64,000 nucleotides of DNA from Desulfurococcus amylolyticus Z-533 (lineage in GTDB: Archaea; Thermoproteota; Thermoprotei_A; Sulfolobales; Desulfurococcaceae): the NCBI RefSeq assembly GCF_000513855.1, contig NZ_KI911318.1:820484-884483 (forward strand), written 5' to 3'. The position numbers and the translations under genes were made by a program. How positions within the stretch are numbered: position 1 is the stretch's first letter; each line of letters begins with the position of its first letter. Below are positions 8,797 through 57,184 of this stretch, in pieces. The notes under the pieces were generated by a model, which saw only the letters and a program-made list of their open reading frames with translations, was not told the origin of the DNA and searched no databases.

Positions 8797-8846
8797 TGGA
8801 TCCAACGACCCAGCATCAGTGAGTAACCCAGCTTTAATTAATATAT

Positions 8847-9120
8847 GACTCCGTTTCTCCCTAGGTGTTCGCCATAATTATATTATTATCCATGGTTTCA
8901 TCTAGGAAGGACTTGCCCCGTCCACAGAAGCTTTGCTATTTCTGCGGGTTCATGGATCGTATTCGACCCAAACGGCACGTGGGTCGCATCTAGGTTTAGC
9001 CCATCAAGGCTCAGAGCACGGCTTCCATCATCCAGGCTGGTACTCTCATACGTTGATAATTCACTCCGCCATCAACCTAATATAAACTTTCCCTCTAAAC
9101 ACCAAAAAGACTTCAGCCCT
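8847..9120 (-). repeat. dispersed element family C, longer copy
   Basis: Two blocks are shared with 45626-45750. Block 1 (8847-8909) contains gtttctccctaggtgttcg and catggtttcatctag. Block 2 (9068-9120) contains ataaactttccctctaaacacc and aaaaagacttcagc. Here the blocks are separated by ~160 bases that the other copy lacks. Those bases hold a possible tnpB tail on the minus strand. The pattern fits an IS200/IS605-type element and its internally deleted derivative. Confidence 0.6.
8898..9053 (-). pseudogene. possible tnpB 3'-end fragment
   Basis: On the minus strand an open frame of ~50 codons ends at TGA 8900-8898. It reads ...SRALSLDGLNLDATHVP, then FGSNTIHEPAEIAKLL, ending WTGQVLPR. Variable tails with THEP-like words are common in archaeal TnpB (IS200/IS605) proteins, and the piece lies inside a repeat element. 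No catalytic part of TnpB is present. This is a pattern-based suggestion only. Confidence 0.35.
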
Positions 9121-9218
9121 TAGGCGTAACTTGTTTTATACTTGATGCATGATAATATATAATATATAGATAGATTTATATGCTCTGGAACGAGTGATTT
9201 ATTCTCGGTGGTGATGTA

Positions 9219-10448: not shown

Positions 10449-10501
10449 GACCTTTGGGAGCATAGTACTTTTTATTCGAGGCTTTCTACAGGGTGGCCGG
10501 G

Positions 10502-11167
10502 CTAGAGTAAACGTGCCATTACAAGTATCTTTAAACTGGTAGCGCTTAGGGCGCAGATGTCCGCAGTGTCTTCAAGTGCTTTATTCAAGCTGTGAACCAT
10601 TATTGCCATCGCCAAAGGCTTGAATCTATCTCCGTATTCAAGTATAAGGCCACGGTTCCTTACCTCTATGTCATCGGCTTTCTCCTCAAGCTTCACTACC
10701 TCATCAAGTAGTCTTAATGCCTCCTCGAAGTTGCTTCTGAGAACAGCTCTAAAAGCCTTGTTATATATTTCAACAGCTTTTACAACCAGCTCGCTTAGCT
10801 CGAGTAACCCGGCCCGTAATTCCTGTGGTATTTCCAGGAAGGGGATTATACGGAGCTCCTTTGCTACTTCTTTAATATGATCGCTTATCATATCAATACT
10901 TGAAACTATACCTAGTAGTTCACTCATGAATGATGCCTCGAGCCTCAACGAGGATATGGAGTACTCGAGTTCGCTTCTCAGTTTTTCACCTCTATTCTCC
11001 AGCTCTACTAGCTCGGTGAGAACCATCCTGGCATCGCCAACCTGGTATCTGTTGAGTAGGTTTACAGCCTGCTTGAATCTCTCAGCAACCTTGGATGATA
11101 TGGAGACATATTCCTCGAGCTTTTCAATGGTATCGTTTGGAAATATGTCACCGAGGTTTACCGGCAC
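10502..11167 (-). CDS. DUF47 / PhoU-like protein
   Basis: A 221-residue, almost wholly helical protein of the DUF47 family, whose members pair with Pit-type phosphate transporters and share the PhoU fold. Visible features are an N-terminal helical repeat (VSISSKVAERFKQAVNLL), a central ISDHIKEVAKEL segment and a C-terminal repeat with EEKADDIEVRNRGLI and ALEDTADICA, typical acidic metal-binding signatures. The start is GTG at 11167. No phosphate transporter is adjacent, so its partner is unknown. Confidence 0.75.
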   Translation of the reverse strand: MPVNLGDIFPNDTIEKLEEYVSISSKVAERFKQAVNLLNRYQVGDARMVLTELVELENRGEKLRSELEYSISSLRLEASFMSELLGIVSSIDMISDHIKEVAKELRIIPFLEIPQELRAGLLELSELVVKAVEIYNKAFRAVLRSNFEEALRLLDEVVKLEEKADDIEVRNRGLILEYGDRFKPLAMAIMVHSLNKALEDTADICALSATSLKILVMARLL

Positions 11168-29787: not shown

Positions 29788-30138
29788 TTCTTCTCAACCC
29801 TTCCCATGCCACTATTCCGATAATGTTTCATAGGGGGGTTTAGTCCTGATATGGGTTGGTGCTGGTTGATGCCGTTCCCCCATTTCTTTTCCCCTGAATC
29901 CCTTCTCGGGCCTGCATTCGGCTTGGGAATGTTCAAAGCGACCCTAGGACATCATGCATCTAGGGCTCCTTGGGAGGGCTGTAAGCCCTTCACCATGTAT
30001 CCACACTATGTTATCTACCATTTCCTATTCCTAGTTTATAAATCTTGGCACGAAATGAGAAACTACACCAACTCTTATAAACCAAATGTGAAAACTAAAA
30101 AGCAATCGAAGACTTAATATTTAGCTTTCTAGATTTTA
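29788..30138. other. spacer with inverted B repeat
   Basis: Contains the inverted 102-bp B copy (29834-29935), then hairpin-prone bases (ccctag...ctaggg, gggctgtaagccc) to about 29990. The AT-rich promoter of the DUF432 gene (cttaatattt near 30113) lies at its right end. No gene is visible. Confidence 0.6.
29834..29935 (-). repeat. 102-bp perfect inverted repeat, left copy (part B)
   Basis: On the minus strand this is identical, base for base, to 32689-32790: from tgaacattcccaagccg to gactaaaccccc. It is the B part of the dispersed element, without part A. Confidence 0.93.
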
Positions 30139-31842: not shown

Positions 31843-32493
31843 ATGTCAATGCTTCACCAGGTTCAGGAACATATAAAGGAAGATTTGTATGCAACCGGTT
31901 TCACTACTCTAAATTATGTACTCGAATACTTTGAATTAGAGTTGGTGGCAAGTATACGTGATAAATCATTAAGTGATGTATTATCGCTTCTCAACGACCT
32001 GGGAAACAAGTATAATTCCATACTCGCTTCTAAACTACTTGTAGAGGGGGAAGTCCGGTGTGTAATCGTCTACCGGGAGCCATATTTAAATATCCAGTGT
32101 AGTAAACCGCAGCCTGGACTCGACCCTAAAGTGATCGAGGCCGATATATACATGTTATCCCCGACCCCCTCAATTAAGGATATTTATCCTGCAACAGTGA
32201 TGAATACACCACTGAAATGCATTAATCAACTATATCTTGCCTCACTATTCTTTAGCAAGGAGCATGCAGTAAAGGGGCTTGAATGCATTGGCCAAGCTGT
32301 TAAGGACATAGAGAAGCTACTTGAAAAACAGGCCTTCATAAACAAGAAAAACGAGAAAATCTCCAAATTAATACTGGATAAATTATCAAAGACATTGAAA
32401 GACCTAGGCATTAAAATAGAAGCTGAGGACTGGGTTAAAGTACTATGGCTAGCGAACGAGTTGGTAATGCTATATAGTGAGACAAAGGCGTAG
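31843..32493 (+). CDS. protein of unknown function
   Basis: A 216-residue soluble protein. The N-terminal part mixes helices and strands (EYFELELVASIRDKS; a VRCVIVYREPYLNIQCSKP strand pair). The C-terminal ~80 residues are lysine-rich helix (KDIEKLLEKQAFINKKNEK, KLILDKLSKTLKDLG). I do not recognise it. It is the last gene before the right copy of the 102-bp inverted repeat. Confidence 0.6.
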   Translation: MSMLHQVQEHIKEDLYATGFTTLNYVLEYFELELVASIRDKSLSDVLSLLNDLGNKYNSILASKLLVEGEVRCVIVYREPYLNIQCSKPQPGLDPKVIEADIYMLSPTPSIKDIYPATVMNTPLKCINQLYLASLFFSKEHAVKGLECIGQAVKDIEKLLEKQAFINKKNEKISKLILDKLSKTLKDLGIKIEAEDWVKVLWLANELVMLYSETKA

Positions 32494-32556: not shown

Positions 32557-32797
32557 TTTTTGTTTTTCACATTGGTTTATGGTTGTTGATATTGATCTTC
32601 TACGACTACTACGTATACTTTTCTTCTCATGTAAATATACTTTGCCAGATCTTCTAGAGTTCTTGTTGGCACTTAAAGGAGATTACCCTGAACATTCCCA
32701 AGCCGAATGCAGGCCCGAGAAGGGATTCAGGGGAAAAGAAATGGGGGAACGGCATCAACCAGCACCAACCCATATCAGGACTAAACCCCCTAGTTAG
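32557..32797 (+). repeat. dispersed A-B element, complete copy; contains right 102-bp inverted repeat
   Basis: Part A (32557-32640) matches the 18.7-kb copy; part B (32683-32797) matches those at 40.2 and 62.8 kb (gaacattcccaagccgaatg and ggattcaggggaaaag). Bases 32689-32790 are the exact inverted twin of 29834-29935. Confidence 0.75.
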
Positions 32798-33037: not shown

Positions 33038-33805
33038 TTAGAACCCGCAACAGGCTACTGTAATGATGACTTCAATCATCCCGGAGATATACGTAATACC
33101 GTATATCTCTATACTCCTGGTGAACACGGTGTGGAACATGAGTGGTAGGGTTGAGAATTGCGCCGGCACCATACTGCCTGTGCTGCCAACCAGTATCGGG
33201 GCATTGTTCACTTGGATCCCGTCGACCAGTATTCTCGTTATGTTTATACGTGAGCTATACGTGTACACTACGAGCTCCACCAGTATACCACTTCCCGTGT
33301 AGTTGACTAGCAATGCCTCATGAGGGCTTGAAGTGGAAATGTTTACCACGTAGATACTGGTATTCCTGAAGCCCGTGAAGACTTGTGACATGTATTCTGC
33401 CTCGGCAAGACTCCATGCTATAAAATTACCTCTTTCAGTAAACACGCCTAGGACGGCTCTATCATTCACTAGTGAATCAGCCACGCTACCCGGTAATGTA
33501 TAATTAATGCTTGAACCAGGCTCTATTGCTATATCTACTGAGTGATCCTCGTAGATTATGCTCGTCGAGTTGTAGACTACTATATCCCTAATGATAGTAT
33601 ATGTGCTGGAACCTATTATCACAGTGTCACCGTGGAGCCTGAAGAATAATTTCTCACTACTCCTTGACGCCTCATCGCTTGCATAGTTGTTCAGCTCGGT
33701 TAGAATAGTTTCGGCCTGCTTAATCAAGCCTATGTATAGCCCGCTCCCGGCTGTTAACAATAGTGTTAAAGCTATAGCACCGTATACCTCGACCTGGAGC
33801 CTCAT
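33038..33805 (-). CDS. membrane-anchored pilin-like surface protein
   Basis: A 255-residue protein. One N-terminal hydrophobic helix (VYGAIALTLLLTAGSGLYIG) precedes a beta-rich extracellular region with many N-glycosylation sequons (NYT, NTS, NIS, NIT). It lacks a clear class III signal cleavage motif. It overlaps the preceding pilin-like gene by four bases and ends the pilus operon, so it is probably a minor pilin or pilus-tip component. I know no closer family. Confidence 0.6.
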   Translation of the reverse strand: MRLQVEVYGAIALTLLLTAGSGLYIGLIKQAETILTELNNYASDEASRSSEKLFFRLHGDTVIIGSSTYTIIRDIVVYNSTSIIYEDHSVDIAIEPGSSINYTLPGSVADSLVNDRAVLGVFTERGNFIAWSLAEAEYMSQVFTGFRNTSIYVVNISTSSPHEALLVNYTGSGILVELVVYTYSSRINITRILVDGIQVNNAPILVGSTGSMVPAQFSTLPLMFHTVFTRSIEIYGITYISGMIEVIITVACCGF

Positions 33806-34176
33806 GGTGAGACCACCACCCCAGCTATTATTACTCCATCAATGTACATGTAGACCGGGGGCTTGAGCACTAGCGGCTCTGGATATATGCATGTCCTTGA
33901 CTCCGTGAAACCGCATTTAGCCAGTAGATCTATCCTGACACCGGTTGAATCATACAGGTATAGCTTGCCAGGGGGTTTCCCAATATATATGAGGACCCTG
34001 TAGCCCTCGTTGCTTCTAACCAGGTAGAGTAATCCATGATTCGCCGCTATCCGTGTCTCCATGGCTATTGATGCACTTGTTAAGCCGGTGTTAACCAGGT
34101 ATACTAGGGCTGGTACTATGGCTAATAATAGAAGTATTGAGGACACTATATTGCTCAACCCCCTCGTATACGACAC
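33802..34176 (-). CDS. pilin-like protein with class III-type signal
   Basis: A 124-residue protein. The N terminus MSYTRGLSNIVSSILLLLAI resembles archaeal prepilin signals: a basic residue and glycine (RG) followed by a hydrophobic stretch that would form the filament core. The remainder is beta-rich with two cysteines (CGFTESRTC) that could form a disulfide. Coupled to the next gene by ATGA. Confidence 0.6.
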   Translation of the reverse strand: MSYTRGLSNIVSSILLLLAIVPALVYLVNTGLTSASIAMETRIAANHGLLYLVRSNEGYRVLIYIGKPPGKLYLYDSTGVRIDLLAKCGFTESRTCIYPEPLVLKPPVYMYIDGVIIAGVVVSP

Positions 34177-34214
34177 CTCCTCAAGGCGCTACTCTACTAG
34201 AGTCTAATAAGGAG

Positions 34215-35639
34215 TCATAGAAGCCCGTAGATGAATACTAGTAGTCCAGGTACCAGTGTACTAATGTTTCTTCCAAGCATTAACTTTGAAGAAATGAATC
34301 CCGTGGCGAGAATGCTTGAATAGGCTACCTGCAGTGTGATTGATGTGAATGGGGCTATGGTTAAGAGAGTCTTAATCAGGAACGGAGTGGATAGTATGGC
34401 TGTAATCATTATTGTCAGGCCGGCTAGGTATGAGCGTAGAGTTCTCAGCAGGTCATTGGTGAAAACCGTGAACAAGGTGTAGACATCTGGCTCTACCTCA
34501 CCGAGTGATCTATGGAATCTAAGGGTCTCACATACATAATCTATTAACCAGGTACGTATAGGCTTTGAGCCCAGGTGTGAGAGGAGTTCGTCATCGACAA
34601 ATATGAGTGACCTATACGTTCTAACATTTACTGAGACGTCTTCAAGCACATTCCTTAATTCAAACGTCTTAAACAGGGCTGTGAGAATCAGTGTGAAGCC
34701 TGGTGCTCCAAGAATCATTGATGCAGCACCTAGGTATAACAGGATCGTCTTCTCCATCATCCTATCCGTTAACACCATATATGTTAATGGGTATGTTAAG
34801 AGCACTACCCCAACAATATACATCAGTGATAACACTTTGCCGACACTCTTCTCGATGAGTACTTTGAATGGGAGAGGGTAGTTAGGTATAATAGTGGATC
34901 CCACTACTCCTAGGATTGGGATTGGGATCAACGTGTAGTATAATATATATGCATCCATTAGAATCGTGAAGCCGACGGTTAATGCTGGTATAACCGATGC
35001 AACCACGGCTATTAAGACTCCCAGCTCGCTCCTCTTCTCAACAATCCTCGAGAGCCCACTCCAGGCATCCTTAACCGCTTCACCGGCACTCCTCATCAAA
35101 TACTCTACAACGGTTCCAGTAGACAGCGCACTGGAGTACTCTATAAAGAATGTCCTAGCCATCCCCTTTAAAACCGAGGAGACAATTCGGAGTGCATCTC
35201 CTACTCCAATAATCTTTTCCAAACAAGTGAATTTCTCCCCGATTACCCTGAACCCCTTGAATACCCTGGACTCGGAGACGTATCTAAGTAGCTCCAATGG
35301 CTCGAGACCTGTTCTACAAGTAGCCGAAGCCATGACTATGAAGAAAGCCAGCTCCTTGTCCACGAGTCCATGAATCCCCCTGGCCTCCGCTAATTTATCA
35401 AGTACTGGAAGCCAGGCAATAATGATCAATAGTGGTACCACTGTAAGTATTAGAGTGCCCGGGCTCTGTGACGCTGAGGTTAAGAGGATCACTAGGATTC
35501 CTTCGAGTGTTACCGCTATAGCACTCTTCAGCTTCCACGGGGCTTCCAAGTACTCCTCTAACCCTTCATCAAGAAACACCGTCCAACCTCTGTAATAATC
35601 GACTACTTTATCTATGAGTCTCCCGAGCATCCTCTTCAC
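34215..35639 (-). CDS. TadC/ArlJ-like type IV pilus platform membrane protein
   Basis: A 474-residue polytopic protein with two repeats of the T2SF (GspF/TadC) fold. Each has a helical cytoplasmic part, e.g. DKELAFFIVMASATCRTGLEPLELL and FEYSSALSTGTVVEYLMRSA-like bundles, followed by membrane helices. It is the inner-membrane platform that works with the assembly ATPase. It overlaps the ATPase gene by four bases. Sequence similarity is low but length, topology and gene order support the call. Confidence 0.75.
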   Translation of the reverse strand: MKRMLGRLIDKVVDYYRGWTVFLDEGLEEYLEAPWKLKSAIAVTLEGILVILLTSASQSPGTLILTVVPLLIIIAWLPVLDKLAEARGIHGLVDKELAFFIVMASATCRTGLEPLELLRYVSESRVFKGFRVIGEKFTCLEKIIGVGDALRIVSSVLKGMARTFFIEYSSALSTGTVVEYLMRSAGEAVKDAWSGLSRIVEKRSELGVLIAVVASVIPALTVGFTILMDAYILYYTLIPIPILGVVGSTIIPNYPLPFKVLIEKSVGKVLSLMYIVGVVLLTYPLTYMVLTDRMMEKTILLYLGAASMILGAPGFTLILTALFKTFELRNVLEDVSVNVRTYRSLIFVDDELLSHLGSKPIRTWLIDYVCETLRFHRSLGEVEPDVYTLFTVFTNDLLRTLRSYLAGLTIMITAILSTPFLIKTLLTIAPFTSITLQVAYSSILATGFISSKLMLGRNISTLVPGLLVFIYGLL

Positions 35640-36991
35640 AGGGCCCCACCGATCCTGCGGCTTCGCTTGAGGATCTCTTCTAGCGTTATGTCTAAGCCAT
35701 CCCTCTCCCTAACCCATATATCACTGTATTCCACGCTATCTCTCCCGGGGTCATATGTTAACTCTACTACACGGGTGAGTATCCTCCTAGGGTTATCTGA
35801 GAAGCCCATGAACGCTACAGCCGTGAACATCCCGACCTGGCTTGGAGTAAGACTTATAGGGTGGGAGATCAGCCTGGTCACCACCTCCCTAGGGGTACCG
35901 CCGTGAAATGTTGTTAAACCACTCATCCCGGAGAGCATTGCCTGCACCAGCACCTGCGCCTCAGAGCCTCGCGTCTCACCTATCACTATCACCCTGGTGG
36001 CTGAGGACCTCAAAGCTGCTTTAGCCAGTGTGAACAAGTCTACTCTGACGCTACCTGTTTCAACAGTAGTGTATCTTGCCCAGGCACTACCCGGAGGTGG
36101 ATCTATCTCTCCAGTATCTTCTATGATGACTACCTTCCACTCCAACGGGATATATGAGTAGAGTATGGATCTAAGCAGTGTTGTTTTACCGGAACCCGGG
36201 GGCCCGGCTATTATGAGGCTCATTCTCTTATTTATCAGTAACTTAAAGTATTCTGCAACAGCCAAGGGCAACGCTTTCTCCTTCACCAGCTCATCAATTG
36301 AGGGTGGCTTACCCGGCCTCTTCCTCACAACTATCTCTGGATGCTGGTATGCCACTATAGGTGATACAAGGTGTACCCTGTGACCGCCATCCTCGATTGG
36401 TAGCTGTGCATCCACTATTGGCCTAGAAGCCGAGATATAAGTGTTACACTTTAATGCTATTAACTGCTGTAGCTCCACAAGCTCTCTTATTGATTCAACC
36501 CTGAGATTAGTCTCTATGAAGTCTACCCTTGGATCAATGCTGGCCAACCTATGCCTAACCCATATGGTGCCGGGCCCCGTTATTGATATATCCTCGACGT
36601 ATGGATCATCAAGTAACACCTGGAGAACCCTGTAGCCGAGGATCATCTTCAATACGTATTCAACCTGGGGGCTGCTCTCCCTGGGGATCCCCAGGATCAT
36701 TGATGCTACATCAGTCACCGGGACTCCTCTACGTATGTGGAGCAAAATGTCTCTAAGCCTCGACTTAACTAGGTTTACTAGCTCTTCATCCACGAGTAAC
36801 CTGGCTTCATATCTGAATACTCCATCACCGTGTTTCACAAGCCTAACCATGTAGCCTCCAACACGGTACTCTGCGACAATCATACCAGTGTCCCGGGAGG
36901 AGATCCCATTCTCCCCTGGATCACTGGATCCGGGCCAGCATCGACCAATGTCTCCACATAGTGGTTCGGAGGGCTTGAAGGATGTGTGCAA
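35636..36991 (-). CDS. type IV pilus assembly ATPase (TadA/VirB11-like)
   Basis: A 451-residue secretion ATPase. The N-terminal domain (to ~240) precedes Walker A GPPGSGKTT (263-271). Next come the Asp box VVIIEDTGEI, Walker B RVIVIGETRGSEA and the His box SGLTTFHGG. It powers pilus polymerisation from the cytoplasmic face. The first 36 residues are odd for the family, but the TTG at 36991 has the strongest ribosome site (aaggtgacc); the ATG at 36883 is an alternative. Confidence 0.87.
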   Translation of the reverse strand: MHTSFKPSEPLCGDIGRCWPGSSDPGENGISSRDTGMIVAEYRVGGYMVRLVKHGDGVFRYEARLLVDEELVNLVKSRLRDILLHIRRGVPVTDVASMILGIPRESSPQVEYVLKMILGYRVLQVLLDDPYVEDISITGPGTIWVRHRLASIDPRVDFIETNLRVESIRELVELQQLIALKCNTYISASRPIVDAQLPIEDGGHRVHLVSPIVAYQHPEIVVRKRPGKPPSIDELVKEKALPLAVAEYFKLLINKRMSLIIAGPPGSGKTTLLRSILYSYIPLEWKVVIIEDTGEIDPPPGSAWARYTTVETGSVRVDLFTLAKAALRSSATRVIVIGETRGSEAQVLVQAMLSGMSGLTTFHGGTPREVVTRLISHPISLTPSQVGMFTAVAFMGFSDNPRRILTRVVELTYDPGRDSVEYSDIWVRERDGLDITLEEILKRSRRIGGAL

Positions 36992-37033
36992 ACAGGGTCA
37001 CCTTGTGGAGAAAAAATTAATGGTAAGCCGGGC

Positions 37034-37456
37034 TTAACCTCCTGTGGCGAAGACGACTTGCGAACGCCCGGTTGCTGAATCAGTCACGTTGACAAGTATC
37101 CTCGATATTGTGACACCATTTTGTAGAGGCACTGTGAATACTAGCTGGACATCACTCTTACCGCTGGCTACCTGGGGCGTTAATGGTGGTGTATAAGTGG
37201 AGCCGTTGGAGAATACTATGGTTACACTGTTAACGCTAATGCTTGAGGGTAATAGGTTGCTGACAACCAATGTGATTACACCGATTCCGGGGGAACCATA
37301 TGTAATACTATACCTGGCCACAGCCATATCTGTTGATGGAAGCTTAGTGCTCTGGTAATCGATGTAGGACTTGATGCCGAATGCGGCAACTACAGCGATC
37401 AATATCATTACTATTACAGCTATGACCTCACTAATACCCTTGACCCCACGCCTCAT
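37034..37456 (-). CDS. type IV prepilin, probable major pilin
   Basis: A 140-residue prepilin. The class III signal is MRRGVKG followed by ISEVIAVIVMILIAVVAAFG, with cleavage expected after KG. The rest is a beta-rich head with NGST and NVT sequons. The frame opens 38 codons earlier, but only the ATG at 37456 has a ribosome site (ggtggtt) and begins the signal. It is adjacent to the assembly ATPase and platform genes. Confidence 0.82.
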   Translation of the reverse strand: MRRGVKGISEVIAVIVMILIAVVAAFGIKSYIDYQSTKLPSTDMAVARYSITYGSPGIGVITLVVSNLLPSSISVNSVTIVFSNGSTYTPPLTPQVASGKSDVQLVFTVPLQNGVTISRILVNVTDSATGRSQVVFATGG

Positions 37457-37605
37457 ACAACCACCACGAGTCGATCTAAGGGTAGGAGTCAAATAAGGAG
37501 TGTTCGATAACCATTTCTGGATTATAGGTCTTCCAACACCTCTTGCGGAAAAGAAGCTTGATAGGGTCATTGAGTTGTGGAACTTAAAGTTGCTGGCTTA
37601 ATTTA

Positions 37606-39198
37606 TTATTTGGTATCCCTGGTTCTCCATGATGGTACCCTGGATTGATACGGATTTAACAATCTTATTCTTTGAGGCGTGTTTGCCACAGCTTGCAACC
37701 CCTGTGTTCTAGTCTGCCTCCTCTCCTCTATTGTTCTCATTGCTCTGAGTACGGTGTATAATAGTATGCTGGCACTCCTCGTGATCACCGGGCCCACTCC
37801 ACCCAGTAATCCTATTATATTGGGTAGTATCATATATATGAATACACTGGTTAAAGCCTGCCCTGCTACACCGACCTGAGTGCTCCAGGTCCTCATGAAC
37901 ACTGCTGTTAAGGGGCCCGCGAGAACCAGGCTGCCCCAGAGTCCTATTACCCTTTTCATTGCCCCACGTAGAGCCGGGTGGAGGTATGCGACTGCCAGTA
38001 TTGGTGTTGAAACTGTTATGGTGAGTATGAGCCAGTGCCTGATCACGACTAGCGCGGAGGCTGAGGCAAGCATAATGGTTAATACAACGGCTAAATTCGC
38101 TGCTACAGGTATGAAGAAGCCGAGCGCCACTCCTGTTGATATAAGTGCCAGTATCGAGGCTATAGAAGGCATTGGATCAACACCCTCAACCACCTTGAGG
38201 GAGAGAGCGTTAAGCATGTCAACCGAGGCATTATGGAGATAGGGGGCTGTAAGAGATAGGAGAACGACTATCAAGGCTTCTCTAACAACATCGATGAAGC
38301 CTCTCGGCTCACCCTCGAAGACGGCCTGGAGTAGCCTGAACCCCAGGTAGAGGCCTAGCCCACTCATCGAGATGGAGAGCGTTAACTCATAGAGACCCCA
38401 TTCAGCCGACCCCTCCTCAAGCCTGGGAGATGTAGTGAGCAACTGAAGGTTGAAGGGTGTTGAGACAACCTGCCAGAACATGCTGAAGAACCCGGTTACA
38501 GGGGAGACTATTATGTCGAAAGGCCATGGAGGCGTCCACGGTTTATCCGAGACACTTACAGCGATACTATTAAAGCCTGTTAAACCACTACTGTTCACAT
38601 TAACCCGTATCACGTATGCCCCGCTTGAATTATAGACATGGTTGAGCCTCAAGGAGGAGCCGTCATCGAACTCCTCAACAACCCCATCACCCCATGAAAC
38701 AGTATAGGAGGCACCATTGATCCCAGGGGAGATGAAGACCGAGAGGCCGACTGCCTCCCCGACATAATAGCCCTGCCTATCAGTGTAGAGGTAGACATAG
38801 AGTGGCCCGCCATAGTCTCCATGGAGGCTGCTGCCCAGGTAAATACCCATCAACCCAACCCCGATGAGGAGGATGCCCCCTAGAATACTGGAGATGCCTT
38901 CACCGATCCTGCCCATGGCAATATATAATCCACCAATTAGTACGAGCCCCAGTGAAGACGCGTAGAGGATCCAGCCGTAGGGAGCATGCCCTAATATGTC
39001 CTGCGATGTATTATAGAGGGAGTTAACTAAGATGCTGGAGAAGCCAGCTAGGAGTAGCCCGGCTACACCCCTGAGGAACCAGGCCCCGGAGTCCCTGTGT
39101 CCTAGGGCATGCTTGATGATTGAGACTATTATAACACTAATGCTTAAAGCCCATAGAATCCAGTCGAGGTATCCTAGTAAACTAGACAACATATCCAT
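37606..39198 (-). CDS. VirB6/CedA-like polytopic membrane protein with PKD domain
   Basis: A 530-residue protein. Four N-terminal membrane helices (to ~125) lead into an external PKD-like beta domain (about 130-218: YVYLYTDRQGYYVGEAVGL, SWGDG, NHVYNSSGAYVIRVNV). A second block of six or more helices (about 265-480) and a basic, cytosolic tail follow. The helical block and its place among VirB2/3/4-like genes fit the CedA/VirB6 channel of crenarchaeal DNA import. CedA proteins known to me are shorter, so the PKD insertion is unusual. The identification is by topology and context. Confidence 0.6.
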   Translation of the reverse strand: MDMLSSLLGYLDWILWALSISVIIVSIIKHALGHRDSGAWFLRGVAGLLLAGFSSILVNSLYNTSQDILGHAPYGWILYASSLGLVLIGGLYIAMGRIGEGISSILGGILLIGVGLMGIYLGSSLHGDYGGPLYVYLYTDRQGYYVGEAVGLSVFISPGINGASYTVSWGDGVVEEFDDGSSLRLNHVYNSSGAYVIRVNVNSSGLTGFNSIAVSVSDKPWTPPWPFDIIVSPVTGFFSMFWQVVSTPFNLQLLTTSPRLEEGSAEWGLYELTLSISMSGLGLYLGFRLLQAVFEGEPRGFIDVVREALIVVLLSLTAPYLHNASVDMLNALSLKVVEGVDPMPSIASILALISTGVALGFFIPVAANLAVVLTIMLASASALVVIRHWLILTITVSTPILAVAYLHPALRGAMKRVIGLWGSLVLAGPLTAVFMRTWSTQVGVAGQALTSVFIYMILPNIIGLLGGVGPVITRSASILLYTVLRAMRTIEERRQTRTQGLQAVANTPQRIRLLNPYQSRVPSWRTRDTK

Positions 39199-39311
39199 AG
39201 AGATCCCTGGAGAAGGAATGCTTCCTGGAGTGAAATAATCAGTGCGTCACGGCCCTATATAAGGCTATATTAAGTCTAGAACAGATCTAATATATAAGTG
39301 AGGTAAGGGAA

Positions 39312-39875
39312 ATGGAGTTTGACTCGAGTAGGATACTGGCCGGAATAGGATCAATCCTCATGGCAATAGGCGTCTTTATCCCGTTGCTGACGCTAGTGGG
39401 ATTAATACTGTTACTAATAGGGTTGAGGGGTCTCTCAGATACATACAGGGAGGAGGGTATATTCAGGAATGCCTTATATGCCGTGATAATCGGTGTAATA
39501 GGTTTAGTGACAATAATGTTTGTAGCAATATCTATAGTAGGGATCGTAATAACCTTCGCTCCCAGTATACCACTGCACATGGCGAGAGGAGTAATTGGTA
39601 CAGTACTACTTTTCATCGTGGTATACTTTGTCATCCTAGTATTAGAGGCATTATTCTACAAGAAGTCCCTTGATCTCCTAGCAACTAAATCAGGTGAGAA
39701 GCTCCTGGAGACAGCAGGGCTATTATTATTGATCGGGGCTGTTTTGACGATCATAATAGTGGGATTAATACTGATTTTCATAGCATGGATAATAGCCGCA
39801 GTAGCCTTCTTCAGCTTGAAGCCACCACAGCCAGCCCAGGAGCAGGTAGTGCAGGCACCTCCGGCACTAGCTTAA
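39312..39875 (+). CDS. DUF996 family membrane protein
   Basis: A 187-residue protein with five or six membrane helices (ILAGIGSILMAIGVFIPLLT is the first) and a Pro/Gln/Ala tail. This matches DUF996, small archaeal/bacterial membrane proteins of unknown role. The GLRGLSDTYREEGIFRNALY loop is typical. It is on the opposite strand to the flanking secretion genes and may be unrelated. The ATG is preceded by gaggtaaggg. Confidence 0.72.
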   Translation: MEFDSSRILAGIGSILMAIGVFIPLLTLVGLILLLIGLRGLSDTYREEGIFRNALYAVIIGVIGLVTIMFVAISIVGIVITFAPSIPLHMARGVIGTVLLFIVVYFVILVLEALFYKKSLDLLATKSGEKLLETAGLLLLIGAVLTIIIVGLILIFIAWIIAAVAFFSLKPPQPAQEQVVQAPPALA

Positions 39876-39887
39876 AGAGCTTTTTTC
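39876..39887 (+). terminator. T-run terminator after the DUF996 gene
   Basis: agagcttttttc directly follows the stop codon; a T6 run is enough for archaeal termination. Confidence 0.4.
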
Positions 39888-40342
39888 CGGGGTTCACAGC
39901 TTCATGAGGCCTCGTCTTTCAAGGCGTGGAGCTTGTTTGTAAGCTTTTTGCTAGACAGCAATACTTGGAGTTGGTGTACAGCTCATTGTCTCCTAGACTC
40001 GCTGTGCACCGCCCGCAGACTGACGGTGGGCCCTGAACAAGTGATGCCGCCCCAGTGAGGGACACCCGAAGAAATGAGGAAAGCTCCAGCAGGAATAGAG
40101 TCCTCGCCCCTCAGGATGAGGAGCCTCGTTATGTTGTTTCTGCTTTCATATAGGTTTACTATTGAATTCTTTTATTGAAGTAATGTAATCGCATGCATAA
40201 ACCTATTCCTTAATTCAAGATGTAGGGTACCTGTGAACGCCCCTAAGCCGTATGCAAGCCCAAAGGGGATACAGGGGGAACAAAAACGAGGGGATGAAAC
40301 CAATTTATATAAACCTATATATAAAGACCTGAACCCCGTCAG
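39888..40342. other. spacer with structured remnant and A-B element
   Basis: From about 39990 the plus strand holds GC-rich, fold-prone sequence ending in agtcctcgcccctcaggatg and aggagcctcg (to ~40130), an altered form of the right end at 17569-17605. The A-B element follows. No protein gene is seen. Confidence 0.55.
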
Positions 40343-40345
40343 CTA
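40133..40345 (+). repeat. dispersed A-B element, short copy
   Basis: Part A (40133-40180: gttgtttctgctttcatata) and part B (40203-40345: ccttaattcaagatg, ataggtaccc-like, cctaagccgtatgcaagccc, aaaccaatttatataaacc, gacctgaacccc). B is close to 62770-62915, and both can encode MQAQ-GYRGNK-E--MKPI in the same frame, which argues that B derives from a protein-coding tail. Confidence 0.75.
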
Positions 40346-42271
40346 ACCCGGCTTCAACCCGGTGGACCCGAGGTAATCTAGTTTAACAATTAATGGTGGT
40401 GGAGGCTGCTCTCCAGGTCTTCCAGCTATCTTTAATACGGCCATACCTGTTGACAGGGATGTTAGGGTTCTGCGGAGTAGTCTGGCGAAGTCGGCATCGA
40501 TGGTGCTTAGTTTCTCAGCGTCTTCACCAGCCACTTGGAACACCAGTTTCACACCTGTATTAGTAAGTACCGATTGGATTAGCTGACCAGGTATTTGACC
40601 AGTGTGCTGATGGGCTACAACAAGATGTAAACCATACTTCCTAGCCTCTGAGAAAACAATGTCTATTAATGGGAGATCGGAGACAAATTGGAACTCATCT
40701 ATGATGAGGAACACGGGTGTCCTGGGCTTTCCCAGCCTCGACCTAGCCAGTGCCTCGTACCATGTCTTGATAACTATTGTCGAGGCGATCAGCCTGGCTA
40801 AATCTCCTCCTACAACCGCCTTGGGTATGGAGAATAATGTCAGTGATCCAGGTGACATCATTTCCTCGAAGTCCACACTGGTCCTGCTCGTTAACTCCCT
40901 GAGAAATCTATCCCTGGCATACGGCTCCAGCCTCGATAATGCCGAGATAAGGGACTGCCTCTGCATACTCCTGAGCACCCCTATTTGGCGCCTCCACTCG
41001 TAGTCACTTAGATCTCCCAGTGTAACCCTACCATCATACAGTCCTAGTATAGTATTATATAGGTCCGCCATAGTGGGTGAATCACTCCTTGAGTACAGAG
41101 CTCTCAAGACGACTCTAAGCAAGTACCTGACGTTCACAGCCGTGTTCACTAGTTTTAAAACCTCGCGGAAGATATCAAGGAGTATGTCTATGGCGACTGA
41201 TACAGCGTAATCCCTATCCCTGTGTTTAGGCAGGTCGAGAGGATTGATACTGAACGGGTTGTCGACCGGGTCATAGAGTAGTGAACCGGATATCTCACTG
41301 CCTAGCTCTAAAGCCATATCTCCATGGGGATCTATCACAATGATAGAGGCCCCACCAGTTTCATACACCCTGTGAACCAGAAGCTTAAGGAAACTAGTCT
41401 TACCACTACCGGTTTGGCCAATAACGTAGACATGCCTCTCGAGGTCACTCATGCAGAGCCTTACCTCCCTCCCGTTAAGGGTAGAGCCTATCCTGAAGCA
41501 ATCGGCCCCGCTTCTAACTGGTACAGCCTCTGGCAGAAGGCTCCTCCTTGCGAATTCAACATTGTGTATAGCTGGATCAGGGAGAACCATCATATCATAC
41601 ACCCTACTACTGGTTACAACTGGTATATCCCCGGGGAAAACTCGGGTCCAGAAACCAGTCTCCAACGGCTTCAGGTACCCCCATAGTTCACCAGGAGTTC
41701 TGGCAATATGCCTAACCCATTTAAAGCCTGTGTAAGATGCCGTGGAATACTTCTCCTCGATCAACCCAAGGGTAATCCTATCCCTTGCCGCCCCCATTAT
41801 CCTCAGGGTCCATAGCCCCCTCCTAGCCCTATCAAGGATGGTCTCAGCCTCCGCTCTGCCTCCACGGGTCCCTCTAGCCTTCAATAACCCACGAGCCCTC
41901 GAGAAGAATATCTCATCTAACACGGTGTCCCTGGAGAACCCTATACACATCAACCCAGGCCTTCCAAGAGAAGACGCTATGCTCGGTGGATCCAGTATAA
42001 CCGTGTCTCTCAGCCAGAAATCCCTTCTATTCTTCAACCTCGCTTCTGAAACATATAGTTCTAGGCCGGTTTCCCCGATCAACTCCTGTACACTATACTC
42101 CCTGACATCCATGAATTTACTGAGAGAATCCCTAGGTAGCTCAGTGGCGATGAATACCCTTAGGCTTCCCCCGGTGTTCAACAGGCAGTAAGTGAACCTG
42201 TAGCCCAGGGCGCTGGGATCCGGCTTCTCCCCGATCCTGGGGAATACATGGTATAGTTGCACTGGTATCAC
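40343..42271 (-). CDS. HerA/VirD4-like ATPase of a DNA-transfer system
   Basis: A 642-residue ATPase. The N-terminal ~280 residues have no clear motif. The motor domain has Walker A GQTGSGKT (285-292), IIVIDPHGDMALELGS, Walker B VFLIIDEFQFV (about 520-530) and an arginine-rich C terminus, as in HerA/TraG/VirD4 DNA pumps. It begins 13 bases after the VirB2-like gene and is co-transcribed with it. In Ced systems the ATPase is a HerA/VirB4 relative; here two distinct such ATPases are present. The start is GTG. Confidence 0.75.
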   Translation of the reverse strand: MIPVQLYHVFPRIGEKPDPSALGYRFTYCLLNTGGSLRVFIATELPRDSLSKFMDVREYSVQELIGETGLELYVSEARLKNRRDFWLRDTVILDPPSIASSLGRPGLMCIGFSRDTVLDEIFFSRARGLLKARGTRGGRAEAETILDRARRGLWTLRIMGAARDRITLGLIEEKYSTASYTGFKWVRHIARTPGELWGYLKPLETGFWTRVFPGDIPVVTSSRVYDMMVLPDPAIHNVEFARRSLLPEAVPVRSGADCFRIGSTLNGREVRLCMSDLERHVYVIGQTGSGKTSFLKLLVHRVYETGGASIIVIDPHGDMALELGSEISGSLLYDPVDNPFSINPLDLPKHRDRDYAVSVAIDILLDIFREVLKLVNTAVNVRYLLRVVLRALYSRSDSPTMADLYNTILGLYDGRVTLGDLSDYEWRRQIGVLRSMQRQSLISALSRLEPYARDRFLRELTSRTSVDFEEMMSPGSLTLFSIPKAVVGGDLARLIASTIVIKTWYEALARSRLGKPRTPVFLIIDEFQFVSDLPLIDIVFSEARKYGLHLVVAHQHTGQIPGQLIQSVLTNTGVKLVFQVAGEDAEKLSTIDADFARLLRRTLTSLSTGMAVLKIAGRPGEQPPPPLIVKLDYLGSTGLKPG

Positions 42272-42284
42272 GCTGGCTGAGACG

Positions 42285-42548
42285 CTATGAGATAAGAGCG
42301 GATAGTATCAGCCAGAGGAAGGCTAGTAGTACTCCTCCCACGATAGCGCTGATGATAAACCTTCTCCCTTCATCACCGTCACCAGTCACGATCTTTAAGA
42401 CGCCATAGAAGCCTGCTCCGAGCACTGCGACCCATGAGAGCCAGTAGAGCCAGCTGAGCACCCTTGAGACGGCTTCACCTATGCCGGGCGGTGGCTCAGG
42501 GGTCACTGTTATTGGTAGGGAGTAGAGTAATTGATACACGAGATCCAT
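42285..42548 (-). CDS. VirB2/CedA1-like pilin subunit
   Basis: An 87-residue protein with two long membrane helices, WLYWLSWVAVLGAGFYGVLK and IISAIVGGVLLAFLWLILSA. They are joined by a short charged loop TGDGDEGRRF; a Pro-rich N-terminal segment (PITVTPEPPPG) precedes them. This helix-loop-helix form is that of conjugative VirB2 pilins and archaeal CedA1. The ATG at 42548 has gggtggg upstream; the frame opens four codons earlier. Its position beside VirB4- and VirD4-like genes supports the call. Confidence 0.68.
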   Translation of the reverse strand: MDLVYQLLYSLPITVTPEPPPGIGEAVSRVLSWLYWLSWVAVLGAGFYGVLKIVTGDGDEGRRFIISAIVGGVLLAFLWLILSALIS

Positions 42549-42651
42549 TATCCCACCCATACTACGTGTCGTAGACGAGTTAAATAAGGAGCATACCGTG
42601 TAGGGCCCTGATTATTTGACTCCCTCCTACAGTATAGGTGTGGTGCCCGGA

Positions 42652-44439
42652 ATGTATAACCATGTATGGTGGAGGCTCACAGGCGTGTCATTCTTCAACC
42701 TCACCGATGCTGAGAGAGACCTGGTTCTCGAGGAATGGAGTTCAATGATGTCCGTGATAAAGGAGGGAGTGCTACTAGCCAGGAGGATCACTGAGGAGTA
42801 CAGGTATGGAGCCTACTCTATAGATGCAGCACAATACAAGTACTATGCATTAGCCCCACCCGGAGTAAACCTCTCATTCTTCAATGCCTCGAGAGAGGAA
42901 CCTAAGAGGCCGAGAGCAGTTAGGTTAATGAATCCTAGGACACTCTCACTCGAGGATGGCAGGATGGCCAGAGTATACGTTGTCTACAGGTATCCATTGA
43001 AGCTACCGGAGGGTTTCACATACATGCTCCTCTCCTCTAGTGATGAAGCTGTATTAGTCTTTAAACGGATCCCGCGTTCCAGGGCCATCCATATAGCTGA
43101 CTCGGTGAGGAAGAGAAGGCTAGGTATACTGGGGGCTAGGGAGGAAGCCAGTGTAGAGCTCGCAGGGGAACTAGCTTCGAGGATAATCAGGGGCGCAGAC
43201 CTCTATGAGTTCCACTTACTCCTCACTATGATAGCACGGGATTACAAGACACTAGAGGATAAGGCTGGAGAGTTAAGAGACTTATTGAAGACGCATGGCC
43301 TGGAGGCTGAGGCCCCCTACATGCAGCTGGATCTATACTACTTTAAGACGAGTGGGCTACTCGCCGGGCTCGAGAAGAAATATACGGATACCTACTCCAT
43401 TAAACCATTCTTCTTCCTAGTGGACGAGGAGGTGAGGGATGAGCGGGGCGTATTCCTCGGGGTCTCAAGCTCTGGATGTCCCGTAATCCTGGATCTCTGG
43501 AGCAAACCTAACCTTAACTTCGTTGTGCTAGGGGTCTCGGGAGCCGGTAAATCAATGACTATCAAAATATACTTGAAGAGGCTTAGGGAGCTTGACAAGG
43601 GTGTAGTTTACTTTGGTGTCGACCCAGAGTCAGAGTATACGAGGGCTTCAAGGGTATTTGATGCAACACCAGTGGAGATCACTGAGGGCGAGGAGCTGGG
43701 TTTAGATCCCATTAGACTACTTAAAGAAGGATTCCTAGAACTAGGCCAAGTAGCCGACGTGCTTTCAGAGCTCTACGCTATACCCCCGAGGCTACAAGGT
43801 GTTCTAAGGAGGGAATTATTCGTTAAGAGTGATAGAGTGGTTGACTTAGAGAGCTTTATAGAAGTCATCGGCGACAAGGAGTTAAAGGGCTTCCTCAAGG
43901 GAGCATTAGCACCACCCGATATCCATGTGTACAGGGGGAGGCTCCCAGAGCTAAGGGGGTCGACTATATTCGGGTTGAAGAATATTAGATCTAGGCGCTT
44001 GAAAGCGCTTATAAGCTCGCTTATCAGTGTATATACGTACAATAAGCTACTCTCTAAAACAGGAAGATCGGTTTTCTTCATTGATGAAGCATGGTTGTTC
44101 CTCGAAACCCCATCTCTCATGGGGCTACTGGAGAACATCGCGAGAAGGGGAAGGAAGCATGGAGTTGCATTCATCTATATAACCCAGAGAGCAGAGGATC
44201 TCGCTAGAACCCCGCAGGGCAGGAGTATCCTGGAGCAATCAGCCACTGTACTAGTGTTAAGGCAGGAGCAGGAGGGGAGGAATATATTAAGGGAGATATA
44301 TGGCTTGAGCGATGCGGAGGTAAACACCATTATAAACGCTCCACCAGGCTACGGCTTGCTGAAGACAGGTGGTAAGAGACTATTTATACAGGTGCTTGCA
44401 ACTAGTGAGGAACTCGGGTTATTCTCCACGAGTAGGTGA
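42652..44439 (+). CDS. VirB4/CedB-like ATPase
   Basis: A 595-residue ATPase. The N-terminal domain (~280 residues) precedes Walker A GVSGAGKSM (about 294-302), VYFGVDPESEY, Walker B VFFIDEAWLFLE, and the C-terminal YITQRAEDL and VLRQEQEGRN typical of VirB4/TrbE. It would energise DNA uptake or pilus dynamics. The frame opens at TTG 42616, but the ATG at 42652 follows aggtgtggtg. It is divergent from the VirB2-like gene; a shared AT-rich region near 42580 probably holds both promoters. Confidence 0.8.
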   Translation: MYNHVWWRLTGVSFFNLTDAERDLVLEEWSSMMSVIKEGVLLARRITEEYRYGAYSIDAAQYKYYALAPPGVNLSFFNASREEPKRPRAVRLMNPRTLSLEDGRMARVYVVYRYPLKLPEGFTYMLLSSSDEAVLVFKRIPRSRAIHIADSVRKRRLGILGAREEASVELAGELASRIIRGADLYEFHLLLTMIARDYKTLEDKAGELRDLLKTHGLEAEAPYMQLDLYYFKTSGLLAGLEKKYTDTYSIKPFFFLVDEEVRDERGVFLGVSSSGCPVILDLWSKPNLNFVVLGVSGAGKSMTIKIYLKRLRELDKGVVYFGVDPESEYTRASRVFDATPVEITEGEELGLDPIRLLKEGFLELGQVADVLSELYAIPPRLQGVLRRELFVKSDRVVDLESFIEVIGDKELKGFLKGALAPPDIHVYRGRLPELRGSTIFGLKNIRSRRLKALISSLISVYTYNKLLSKTGRSVFFIDEAWLFLETPSLMGLLENIARRGRKHGVAFIYITQRAEDLARTPQGRSILEQSATVLVLRQEQEGRNILREIYGLSDAEVNTIINAPPGYGLLKTGGKRLFIQVLATSEELGLFSTSR

Positions 44440-44444
44440 GTAGG

Positions 44445-44774
44445 ATGGAGGCGAGGCTTCATGACTTCATATACCTTGAGGAGGCATCGGTGCTTGATGA
44501 AAAGCTGATCGGCCCCTTGAAGCTGAGGAACACGGTGACCCTGATCCCAGGCATACTCATGCTACACGCGTGGCTTACAAGCGGTTCCCTAGGCGCGCTT
44601 GCAACCGGCTTGTTAATGATGTCTATGACAATAGCTAGTATAGTATACTCTGGGAAGACAATGACCCTAGAGAACATGTTGACGGCTTACATCTACTCTT
44701 TAATATCCATTTACCGGTGGAATTGGTTAAGCCATAGGGGATCAACGTCAACGGCTCCCCGCACTAAAGGATGA
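44445..44774 (+). CDS. VirB3/CedA2-like small membrane protein
   Basis: A 109-residue protein with two adjacent membrane helices (NTVTLIPGILMLHAWLTSG and ALATGLLMMSMTIASIVYSG) between a charged N terminus and a C-terminal amphipathic part. VirB3 proteins have this form and are encoded next to VirB4, as here. The ATG at 44445 has aggtgag upstream; it lies 5 bases after the VirB4-like stop. Confidence 0.6.
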   Translation: MEARLHDFIYLEEASVLDEKLIGPLKLRNTVTLIPGILMLHAWLTSGSLGALATGLLMMSMTIASIVYSGKTMTLENMLTAYIYSLISIYRWNWLSHRGSTSTAPRTKG

Positions 44775-55030: not shown

Positions 55031-57184
55031 GTGGATCAAGCCATGGATATAGATGCACTACTAGGGTACGGTTTCCCCCGAGGATACATAGAGCTGTTAA
55101 AGACTAGGGGGATAAGAAGGCTGAACCCTGTTCAGAGCGAGGCAGTGGAGAAGGGGTTGTTCACCGGGGGAAATCTCGTTGTCTCAGCCCCAACAGCCTC
55201 CGGTAAAACACTCATAGCCGAGCTAGCCCTGGTCTACAACTGGCTGAACCATGGGAAGGGAGTATACCTAACGCCGTTGAGAGCGCTTGCCAGCGAGAAG
55301 TATGGGGAGTTCAAGACACTGGAGGCTCTAGGAGTGAGGGTAGGGGTTTCAACAGGCGACTACGATGAGCCAGTCGAGTACCTGAGCTGGTACGATATAA
55401 TAGTGGCTACATACGAGAGATTCGACAGTATACTAAGGCAGAAGCCGAGCTGGCTCCGCGATGTCGGATTAGTAGTCATAGACGAGATCCATATGGCTAG
55501 CGACCCTGAACGAGGACCAATAGTAGAGGTTATAGCAGCCAGACTCCTTAGGCAAGGCACCAGGATCATAGGTCTCTCTGCCACAATAGGGAATCCAGAG
55601 GCTCTCGCAGAATGGCTTAACGCTGTGCTGGTTAACACCGATTGGAGGCCTGTGAGGCTTGTGGAGGGATACCTGGATAAGAAGAAGCCTGGATTAGTCT
55701 TCCCCGTGGATAATAGAGTGGAGAGCGTTGACCTGGAGAACGGGGATCCATTCTTAGACATACCACTACACAACGTGGTTGAACTAGGGTTACAGACACT
55801 GGTTTTCATACATAACAGGAGGAAGGTAGAGGATTATGCCGTAGAAGCCGCAAGACACCTTCCGATGCTCCCCGAGGATGCTGTAAAGCTATTTATCAGT
55901 GAACTAGAGGATGCGCCAACTAGTATTGAGAGAGACGTGCTTTCAGACCTTATCAGGAGAGGTGTTGGCTTCCATCATGCAGGATTATCCAGTATAGCTA
56001 GGAGCACTGTAGAGAAGGCTTTTAGGAGCAGGCTTCTCAAGATAGTCTACGCGACGCCGACCCTAGCTGCTGGAGTAAACCTTCCAGCTAGAAGGGTCCT
56101 GGTCTCCTTGAAACGCTATGATGCATCAAGGGGTAGGAGGGTGAATATAAGTATCTCGGAGTACAAGCAGATGGCTGGGAGGGCTGGAAGACCCGGCTAT
56201 GATGAAATAGGTGAATCAGTGATCACTGATGCATCAAGCAATAGCGAGGCCTTGAAGTATATTAATGGATCCCCTGAGCCGGTTGCAGGCAAGCTTCTCA
56301 GTGAGAGAAGCCTCAGGATACATGTCTTATCACTAGTGGCTTCAGGTGAGGCGTCAAGCATCGATGAGGTATCAGAGATCCTTTCATCCACGCTCTCAAT
56401 GAAGCAGGCTAAGGTCTCACCATTCCAATCAGCGAAGATAATGGGGGCCGTTAAACTACTCGAGGAGTTGGGCATGATTGAGTACTCCGGTAACAATTCC
56501 CTGAAAGCTACCAGGCTGGGCAGGGTGACATCCCACACCTACCTGGATCCCTTAAGCATAAGCATATACAGAGAGCTGAAACCAGTCGAGCCTTCGGACA
56601 TCTACCTGCTCCACGTGGCCTGCTTAACACCGGACTTCAAGAGAAGTTCGCCATATATACAGGATAAGATCGTGGAGAGATTAGAAGACGTTGCTCTCGA
56701 GATGGCTGATCAGGGGATGATACCACCGCCCTCGAAAACCAGCCTAGACTATGAGGAGTGGTTGGATGGATTCATGCATGCCATGATACTCTACGACTGG
56801 ATAAACGAGGTTTCAGAGGATGAAATAGTATCAAGATACATGATTGGCCCAGGAGACCTCTACAGCATGAGGGATACAGCATCATGGATCATCCATGCAT
56901 TAGCCCGTGTAGAAGCGGTGCTGGGGGATATAAGGTTCCACAAAGCCCTCGACACGTTGTCGAGAAGGATCGAGGAAGGGGTAAAGGAGGATGCACTAGA
57001 GCTGATCACACTGAGGCTTATTGGAAGGGTTAGGGCAAGGATACTTATACAACACGGGATCAAGAGCCTCAGGGATCTAGCTGAGACACCGTTATCAAAG
57101 ATAGCTTCCTTACCGAAGTTCGGTCCAAGGATAGCTGAGGAGATAGATAGACAGCTCAGGGACCTCGGCTATAGGATTAATTAA
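55031..57184 (+). CDS. hel308: Hel308 (Hjm) superfamily 2 DNA helicase
   Basis: A 717-residue Ski2-like helicase acting on stalled forks. Q-motif region LNPVQSEAVE, Walker A APTASGKT (53-60), PLRALASEK (Ia), DEIH box VVIDEIHMASDP, SATIGN (III), FHHAGLSS, and QMAGRAGRPGYDE (VI). A winged helix, ratchet domain and C-terminal HhH (LPKFGPRIAEEID) follow. The GTG at 55031 is listed; the ATG at 55043 (MDIDALLGYG) is equally likely. Confidence 0.95.
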   Translation: MDQAMDIDALLGYGFPRGYIELLKTRGIRRLNPVQSEAVEKGLFTGGNLVVSAPTASGKTLIAELALVYNWLNHGKGVYLTPLRALASEKYGEFKTLEALGVRVGVSTGDYDEPVEYLSWYDIIVATYERFDSILRQKPSWLRDVGLVVIDEIHMASDPERGPIVEVIAARLLRQGTRIIGLSATIGNPEALAEWLNAVLVNTDWRPVRLVEGYLDKKKPGLVFPVDNRVESVDLENGDPFLDIPLHNVVELGLQTLVFIHNRRKVEDYAVEAARHLPMLPEDAVKLFISELEDAPTSIERDVLSDLIRRGVGFHHAGLSSIARSTVEKAFRSRLLKIVYATPTLAAGVNLPARRVLVSLKRYDASRGRRVNISISEYKQMAGRAGRPGYDEIGESVITDASSNSEALKYINGSPEPVAGKLLSERSLRIHVLSLVASGEASSIDEVSEILSSTLSMKQAKVSPFQSAKIMGAVKLLEELGMIEYSGNNSLKATRLGRVTSHTYLDPLSISIYRELKPVEPSDIYLLHVACLTPDFKRSSPYIQDKIVERLEDVALEMADQGMIPPPSKTSLDYEEWLDGFMHAMILYDWINEVSEDEIVSRYMIGPGDLYSMRDTASWIIHALARVEAVLGDIRFHKALDTLSRRIEEGVKEDALELITLRLIGRVRARILIQHGIKSLRDLAETPLSKIASLPKFGPRIAEEIDRQLRDLGYRIN

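Follow-up and report, generated by a model that had tools for sequence, protein, structure and literature searches.

Archaeal DNA exchange is known from Sulfolobus as two unlinked systems, the Ups pili and the DNA importer Ced, and to our knowledge Ups pili have been thought restricted to Sulfolobales. Here we describe a chromosomal island of Desulfurococcus amylolyticus Z-533, in which genes of a type IV pilus and of a conjugation-type secretion system lie side by side. The island occupies 33.0-44.8 kb of a 64,000-nucleotide stretch, hereafter the window, which corresponds to bases 820484-884483 of the single-contig genome of 1,307,099 bases. An original prediction, made from the letters of the window, had placed a type IV pilus set beside a VirB-like set, taken the adjacency to suggest one DNA-exchange island, and held that Ups and Ced are encoded at separate loci in Sulfolobales. 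The latter agrees with the presumed S. acidocaldarius genome, where a cedA candidate is found at approximately 460 kb, cedB at approximately 598 kb, and the ups genes at approximately 1,270 kb. The pilus and VirB sets are indeed there: all open reading frames (ORFs) of the earlier listing are present at their positions, and family models identify TadA, TadC, pilins, VirB4, and VirD4. With a probability of roughly three in four, the island would be one co-regulated, chromosomally fixed pilus-plus-conjugation unit for DNA exchange. The two blocks are read as a single unit, as had been predicted, because of their conserved linkage, their mixed operons, and a shared promoter element.

On the minus strand the genes are read in the order VirB2, VirD4, VirB6, pilin, TadA, TadC, UpsA/B-type pilin, and pilin-like protein; on the plus strand the order is DUF996, VirB4, and VirB3-like protein. 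Orthologs and the promoter element served to refine where pilin, VirB2, and VirB4 begin. The pilin start was thereby moved from 37570 to 37456, most orthologs having 142-164 amino acids (aa), and the VirB4 start from 42616 to 42652; VirB2, from 42548, has 87 aa, the length given in the original prediction. Genomes are designated with G numbers, where G000 is the window genome and G001 and G002 are sister species of the same genus; L numbers are fetched loci. The features of the island are as follows.

33038..33805, minus: pilin-like membrane protein of family c6, final gene of the pilus operon; c6 is also linked in the G001, G022, G044, G054, and G047 islands
33802..34176, minus: UpsA/UpsB-type pilin of family c10, with a hydrophobic N-terminus after RG (c10 profile, E 2e-5)
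34199..34214, minus: shared promoter element in a weaker version, upstream of the UpsA/B-type pilin (fifth-best matrix match in the window)
34215..35639, minus: TadC/UpsF-type pilus membrane platform (UpsF is the top NCBIfam match, E 4e-8 over 45-291; TadC tree)
35636..36991, minus: TadA/UpsE-type pilus assembly ATPase (PF00437, T2SSE, E 1e-20; TIGR03819, E 2e-35; tree)
37034..37456, minus: major pilin of 140 aa with class III signal peptide, MRRGVKG/ISEVIAVIVMILIAV (TIGR02537, E 7e-9)
37485..37496, minus: shared promoter element TTATTTGACTCC, 28 nt upstream of the pilin ATG
37606..39198, minus: VirB6/CedA-like channel protein with a pilin-homologous N-terminus, a PKD domain, and additional transmembrane (TM) helices (plasmid VirB6 profile, E 3e-31)
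39227..39238, minus: shared promoter element TTATTTCACTCC, 28 nt upstream of the VirB6 ATG
39312..39875, plus: DUF996 membrane protein (PF06195, E 1e-27)
40343..42271, minus: VirD4/TraG-type coupling ATPase, 642 aa (TrwB_AAD_bind, E 3e-10; T4SS-DNA_transf, 5e-7; TraG-D_C, 2e-5)
42285..42548, minus: VirB2/CedA1-like conjugation pilin, 87 aa from the ATG at 42548 (plasmid VirB2 profile, E 3e-17)
42576..42591, minus: shared promoter element CTCCTTATTTAACTCG before VirB2 (matrix scan)
42612..42623, plus: shared promoter element TTATTTGACTCC, 28 nt upstream of the VirB4 ATG
42652..44439, plus: VirB4 ATPase (VirB4 models; 36% identity over 98% with a protein encoded on a Sulfolobus conjugative plasmid)
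44436..44774, plus: VirB3/PrgI-like small membrane protein, overlapping the VirB4 stop (plasmid VirB3-position proteins, E 4e-12)

Of the 214 genomes of the order, 39 have a VirB4 of this family. Outside Sulfolobaceae, TadA lies at most 15 kb from VirB4 in 16 of the 17 assessable genomes, distributed over seven families (expected 1.2, P 2e-18), and with one genome per family all seven are linked (P 6e-9). These figures assume four TadA copies in six of the genomes and exclude those with too little contig (G022, G113, G114, G161, G163, and others), several of which show pilin genes beside VirB4. The exceptions were G002 with its dispersed parts and the second VirB4 locus of G041. This synteny speaks for the earlier expectation that the adjacency is no accident of a single strain. 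Gene orders vary between lineages, and pilus and channel genes are intermixed in single runs, e.g., c10-c6-c6-VirB2-pilin-TadA-TadC-VirD4 in G054, while G047, G160, and G162 have a mixed operon c10-c6-VirB3-UpsX-like. In the CedB-bearing genomes G040, G050, G060, and G063 the order is pilin-TadA-TadC-UpsX-like-CedB, mostly with overlapping reading frames. Nine Sulfolobaceae VirB4 neighbourhoods of conjugative-plasmid-like character (20 kb each, one 19 kb) contain channel genes and no TadC, and at most a weak TadA-profile match, to a 252-aa ATPase in one of them.

The 12-nt element TTATTTSACTCC has just three exact copies across the whole 1.307 Mb genome, all inside the island, and each copy stands 28 nt before a start, i.e., those of pilin, VirB6, and VirB4. 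About 0.02 exact matches are expected per 64 kb. As an independent test of this post hoc motif, a matrix built from four window sites was scanned in selected loci of the two sister species. The best four sites in G001 were located before VirB2, pilin, UpsA/B-type pilin, and VirB4, with VirB6 as the seventh. In G002 the best four distinct sites were located before pilin, VirB2, VirB6, and UpsA/B-type pilin, spanning loci up to 129 kb apart and two contigs. The Sulfolobus UV motif A(N)TTTC was considered as the source of the element and rejected, the VirB6 copy being without it as judged by eye and with no formal scan.

Some further arrangements were recorded around these loci. In each of the three species of the genus, the DUF996 gene adjoins VirB6 (L039 6309-6884; L042 8473-9072), and the pairing is kept even in L042, where VirB6 has relocated. 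Two Archaeoglobi metagenome-assembled genomes carry VirB4, VirB3, and TadA together in one region (L084 1482-16172 and L085), L084 also with VirB6 and a 1207-aa VirD4-like protein. In L061, L062, L063, and L193, the UpsX-like gene is immediately followed by CedB in the form of two adjoining ORFs, one for the N-terminal domain and one for the ATPase. L191 from G019, a genome without a VirB4 ortholog, contains a VirB3-like fragment, a stop-broken UpsX-like gene, and a VirD4-like fragment (9064-10920, 19720-20000), the apparent remains of an island. Chromosomal plasmid-type VirB4 and VirB6-like genes were found in L145 (G203, 7475-10845) with VirB4 broken into two ORFs; this locus is probably a decaying integrated element.

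Both channel ATPases were readily recognized. VirB4 matched VirB4 models down to E 6e-26 and the crystal structure 4ag5 at E 2e-19, and the 642-aa ATPase matched DUF87/HerA, TrwB, TraG, and CedD models, and was 33% identical over 98% to a protein encoded on a Sulfolobus conjugative plasmid and 46% identical over 81% to one on a T. nautili plasmid. The two have near-full-length matches to both ATPases of Sulfolobus conjugative plasmids, and also to those of a 103-kb Thermococcus plasmid. The second HerA-like ATPase singled out by the original prediction is this VirD4/TraG coupling ATPase, a normal partner of VirB4. The proteins of 530, 91, and 112 residues, i.e., VirB6, VirB2, and the VirB3-like protein, gave no Pfam match above threshold. 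Profiles compared with their Sulfolobus conjugative plasmid counterparts, however, gave E 3e-31, 3e-17, and 4e-12, respectively, and shuffled VirB6 controls against the plasmid proteins gave E 0.3 or worse. A tblastn search of VirB6 against plasmids had found no match before the profile comparison gave one. At its N-terminus, VirB6 is a homologue of VirB2 (E 1e-8), which together with the plasmid profiles upholds the predicted VirB2 and VirB6 assignments; the same kind of relation has been reported for CedA and CedA1 (PMC9905601). The T4SS_pilin domain PF18895 was seen in five of seven VirB2 family members, all sub-threshold, and PrgI PF12666 in three of eight VirB3-like members, with a best E of 0.025 below cut-off. 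PrgI is the VirB3 counterpart of Gram-positive systems. The AlphaFold2 model of VirB6 (pLDDT 69) consists of helices, a PKD-like beta domain, and then more helices. Searches of PDB sequences with the VirB2 and VirB6 profiles gave chance or PKD matches only.

With plasmid-type VirB4 and VirD4 accompanied by VirB6, VirB2, and VirB3-like partners, the set has what defines the type IV secretion systems of archaeal conjugative plasmids. Judged by these similarities, the channel is of the VirB4/VirD4 type of archaeal conjugative plasmids and not Ced itself, so the strict label "Ced-type" of the original prediction was not sustained. No CedB ortholog was found above cut-off in the window genome, the weak CedB-model matches falling at best (E 2e-7) on the window VirB4. 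For VirB6 and VirB2, no similarity could be detected to the candidates for CedA and CedA1 of S. acidocaldarius, which are single sequences picked by position and topology. The protein first listed with 109 residues is VirB3/PrgI-like, as had been proposed, whereas its identity with CedA2 was not supported. A 444-475-aa neighbour of CedB was rejected as CedA, not being a multi-pass channel protein and showing no profile similarity. In addition, a protein of approximately 610-670 aa with an N-terminal TM segment recurs near VirB3 and UpsX-like genes and in conjugative plasmids, and may be another channel component. The candidate copies are:

L132 15722-17551
L047 8062-10065
L134 15181-17019
L058 10347-12221
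L138 10718-12568

The pilus part comprises what is expected of an archaeal type IV pilus, namely a secretion ATPase, a TadC platform, class III prepilins, and a prepilin peptidase (PF01478), the latter encoded outside the island at C1:1274879 of the same genome. TadA matched archaellum/TadA family models down to E 6e-52, and a relative of the c10 pilin in G054 matched UpsB and UpsA models (E 2e-4 and 3e-3). TadC scored 32 bits against the UpsF model, the cut-off of which is 400, and does not qualify as an UpsF ortholog. In the trees, TadA and TadC of the island form their own clade outside UpsE and UpsF; the window ATPase falls, with SH-like support of 1.0, into a clade with the island ATPases of genomes bearing VirB4 and of genomes bearing CedB, apart from UpsE. 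A second TadA/TadC lineage, related to UpsF, was seen in linkage with more distant VirB4 genes (G053, G039, G041, G167, G168, and G174), and in G018 a TadA of this lineage is linked to VirB4. Since each of the two lineages is found beside VirB4, two pilus lineages became linked to VirB4.

Most islands carry a gene of the c5 family after VirB3 or TadC. The c5 proteins are approximately 690 aa long (595-810 aa when intact), none of the five members examined having a predicted TM segment, and are almost confined to genomes with a VirB4 or CedB island. Compared with twelve Sulfolobaceae UpsX sequences, the c5 profile gave E 5e-8 over 614 collinear columns (reverse comparison E 4e-7), and reversed, shuffled, and unrelated controls gave E 0.07 or worse; the match was significant with twelve UpsX sequences, and a comparison with two was not decisive. 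On this profile evidence c5 is a remote homologue of UpsX. Its predicted model (pLDDT 87) is all-beta, propeller-like and then with Ig-like domains, and its PDB matches had low TM-scores only. UpsX, in which we know of no identifiable domains, thereby becomes part of a wider family located beside VirB3/VirB4, and its fold is predicted to be beta-propeller-like. Two candidates for UpsX were rejected: a possible remnant at window positions 31843-32493, placed convergently to the pilus operon as c5 is in G001, which showed no similarity, and an approximately 780-aa protein (c780) in the UpsX slot of G037 and G057 (E 0.1, unsupported). Sulfolobus cells with UpsX deleted still form pili and aggregate, but their UV-induced increase in DNA transfer is only about half as large; after UV, a portion of the protein relocates to the membrane (PMC3892339).

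We suggest the following mechanism. An Ups-like type IV pilus made of class III pilins, with TadA and TadC as its assembly machinery, would bring cells into contact. VirD4 would feed DNA into a stripped-down secretion system of the conjugative-plasmid type, with VirB4 powering assembly and transfer, VirB6 and VirB3 forming the membrane channel, and VirB2 forming the conjugation pilus. Pilus and channel would act together with DNA as the substrate, and we infer that chromosomal DNA is swapped between kin. The presence of VirD4 argues for export ability, whereas Ced imports, and suggests that the island can act as a donor. More tentatively, and rather doubtful at present, pilus contact and conjugation-type transfer may ancestrally have formed a single co-regulated module of hyperthermophilic archaea, in which UpsX-type proteins link pilus base and channel physically or by regulation, and the Ups and Ced loci of Sulfolobus may represent its later break-up.

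Several observations weigh against a single co-regulated exchange unit. In G002 the parts are dispersed, with the pilus genes 117 kb from VirB4 and VirB6 on a different contig. Pilus genes of the island clade are also found without a VirB4 ortholog, together with CedB. The promoter element is TATA-box-like, was noticed post hoc, and is genus-specific, loci of other families having no comparable matrix matches at island promoters. Foldseek of the VirB6 model matched the PKD domain only, so that the VirB6 fold is a predicted one. No relaxase or DNA-processing gene was recognized among the island proteins scanned, and no c5/UpsX homologue was detectable in the window genome, remote homologues being present in the sister species and other islands; the link between c5 and UpsX is therefore evidence on the family, not on the window strain. 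If the blocks were accidental neighbours, a general adhesion pilus beside an unrelated secretion system, the dispersal in G002 would be readily explained, as would the different block order in the window and G001. Such chance is nevertheless very unlikely, with linkage recurring in seven families under differing gene orders, with mixed operons, and with the promoter element retained even in the dispersed G002. Lower still we rate the chance that the secretion set exports proteins and the pilus serves attachment. Bacterial type IV secretion systems can carry protein, and the lack of a recognized relaxase would fit, but VirD4/TraG of archaeal plasmids is needed for DNA transfer (PMC9899855, PMC12857230), and the UpsX-like partner and the CedB variants point to DNA. 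No relaxase is known for archaeal plasmids (PMC12857230).

Somewhat less remote, though still unlikely, is that the island is a living or decaying integrated conjugative element (ICE) which mainly transfers itself and whose pilus raises mating efficiency as in IncI plasmids. All five secretion components match Sulfolobus conjugative plasmids, and Nitrosocaldus has ICEs with VirB4, VirD4, VirB6, and VirB2 (PMC5797428). Against this, the 64-kb window has no tRNA gene, and no integrase or replication gene was recognized among the ORFs and families examined, which covered the island and selected flanking proteins. The island proteins are 40-70% identical to those of G001, the channel ATPases and TadA (66-70%) diverging about like the flanking core genes (63-87%), and the same chromosomal flank borders the island in both genomes. 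The GC content is 0.484 in the island and 0.468 in the window. From these comparisons the island is probably not a recent arrival; the plasmid-type loci of Sulfolobaceae come without pilus genes. TadA could also be the VirB11 of the secretion system, with no separate pilus, as it matches VirB11 models (E 1e-27) and directly follows VirB4 in G018. We find this improbable, since a TadC platform and class III pilins accompany TadA in most islands and Sulfolobus plasmid-type sets are without TadA. The single pilus-plus-conjugation unit remains the preferred reading.

Two observations concern the surroundings of the island. An identical 102-bp sequence at window positions 29834-29935 and 32689-32790 forms two inverted copies around the genes for DUF432 and MscS and may be a small mobile repeat. 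A Hel308-type repair helicase is encoded at 55031-57184, approximately 10 kb from the island and within the flank conserved with G001.

A linked, co-regulated island in seven or more families predicts that pilus and channel are one machine. The analysis also supplies VirB3/PrgI-like candidates for archaea in which none were recognized, and points to specific genes that could be targeted by exchange assays in Desulfurococcus and Fervidicoccus relatives. No earlier description of a pilus-channel pairing in archaea was found, in a literature search limited to open-licence papers. In bacteria such a pairing is already known (IncI, PAPI-1).

Among the described systems, the Sulfolobus conjugative plasmids of the pNOB8 family (TrbE is VirB4, TraG is VirD4) have homologues of VirB4, VirD4, VirB6, VirB2, and the VirB3-like protein of the island. 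The island differs by being chromosomal and by its type IV pilus, DUF996 gene, and shared promoter element, the plasmid-type loci having no TadA or TadC. With Ups pili (upsXEFAB) it shares the ATPase, the platform, and two kinds of class III pilins, and related islands have an UpsX homologue; yet TadA and TadC form a separate clade, sub-cut-off for UpsF, and the window genome is without UpsX. Likeness to Ced and Ted lies in the chromosomal VirB4-, VirB6-, and VirB2-like core and in the VirB6 N-terminus resembling the VirB2 pilin. In place of CedB/CedD, however, the island has VirB4 and VirD4, and Ced and Ups are unlinked in Sulfolobus, whereas Ted loci have been described without a pilus operon. 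The bacterial elements IncI R64, pYR4, and PAPI-1 likewise combine a type IV pilus with a type IV transfer system in one element, and the pilus is essential in PAPI-1 of P. aeruginosa (PMC12857230, PMC12102498, PMC6232867). Those hybrids are mobile elements of diderm bacteria, while the island appears as a fixed chromosomal set of archaea with a pilus of a different lineage.

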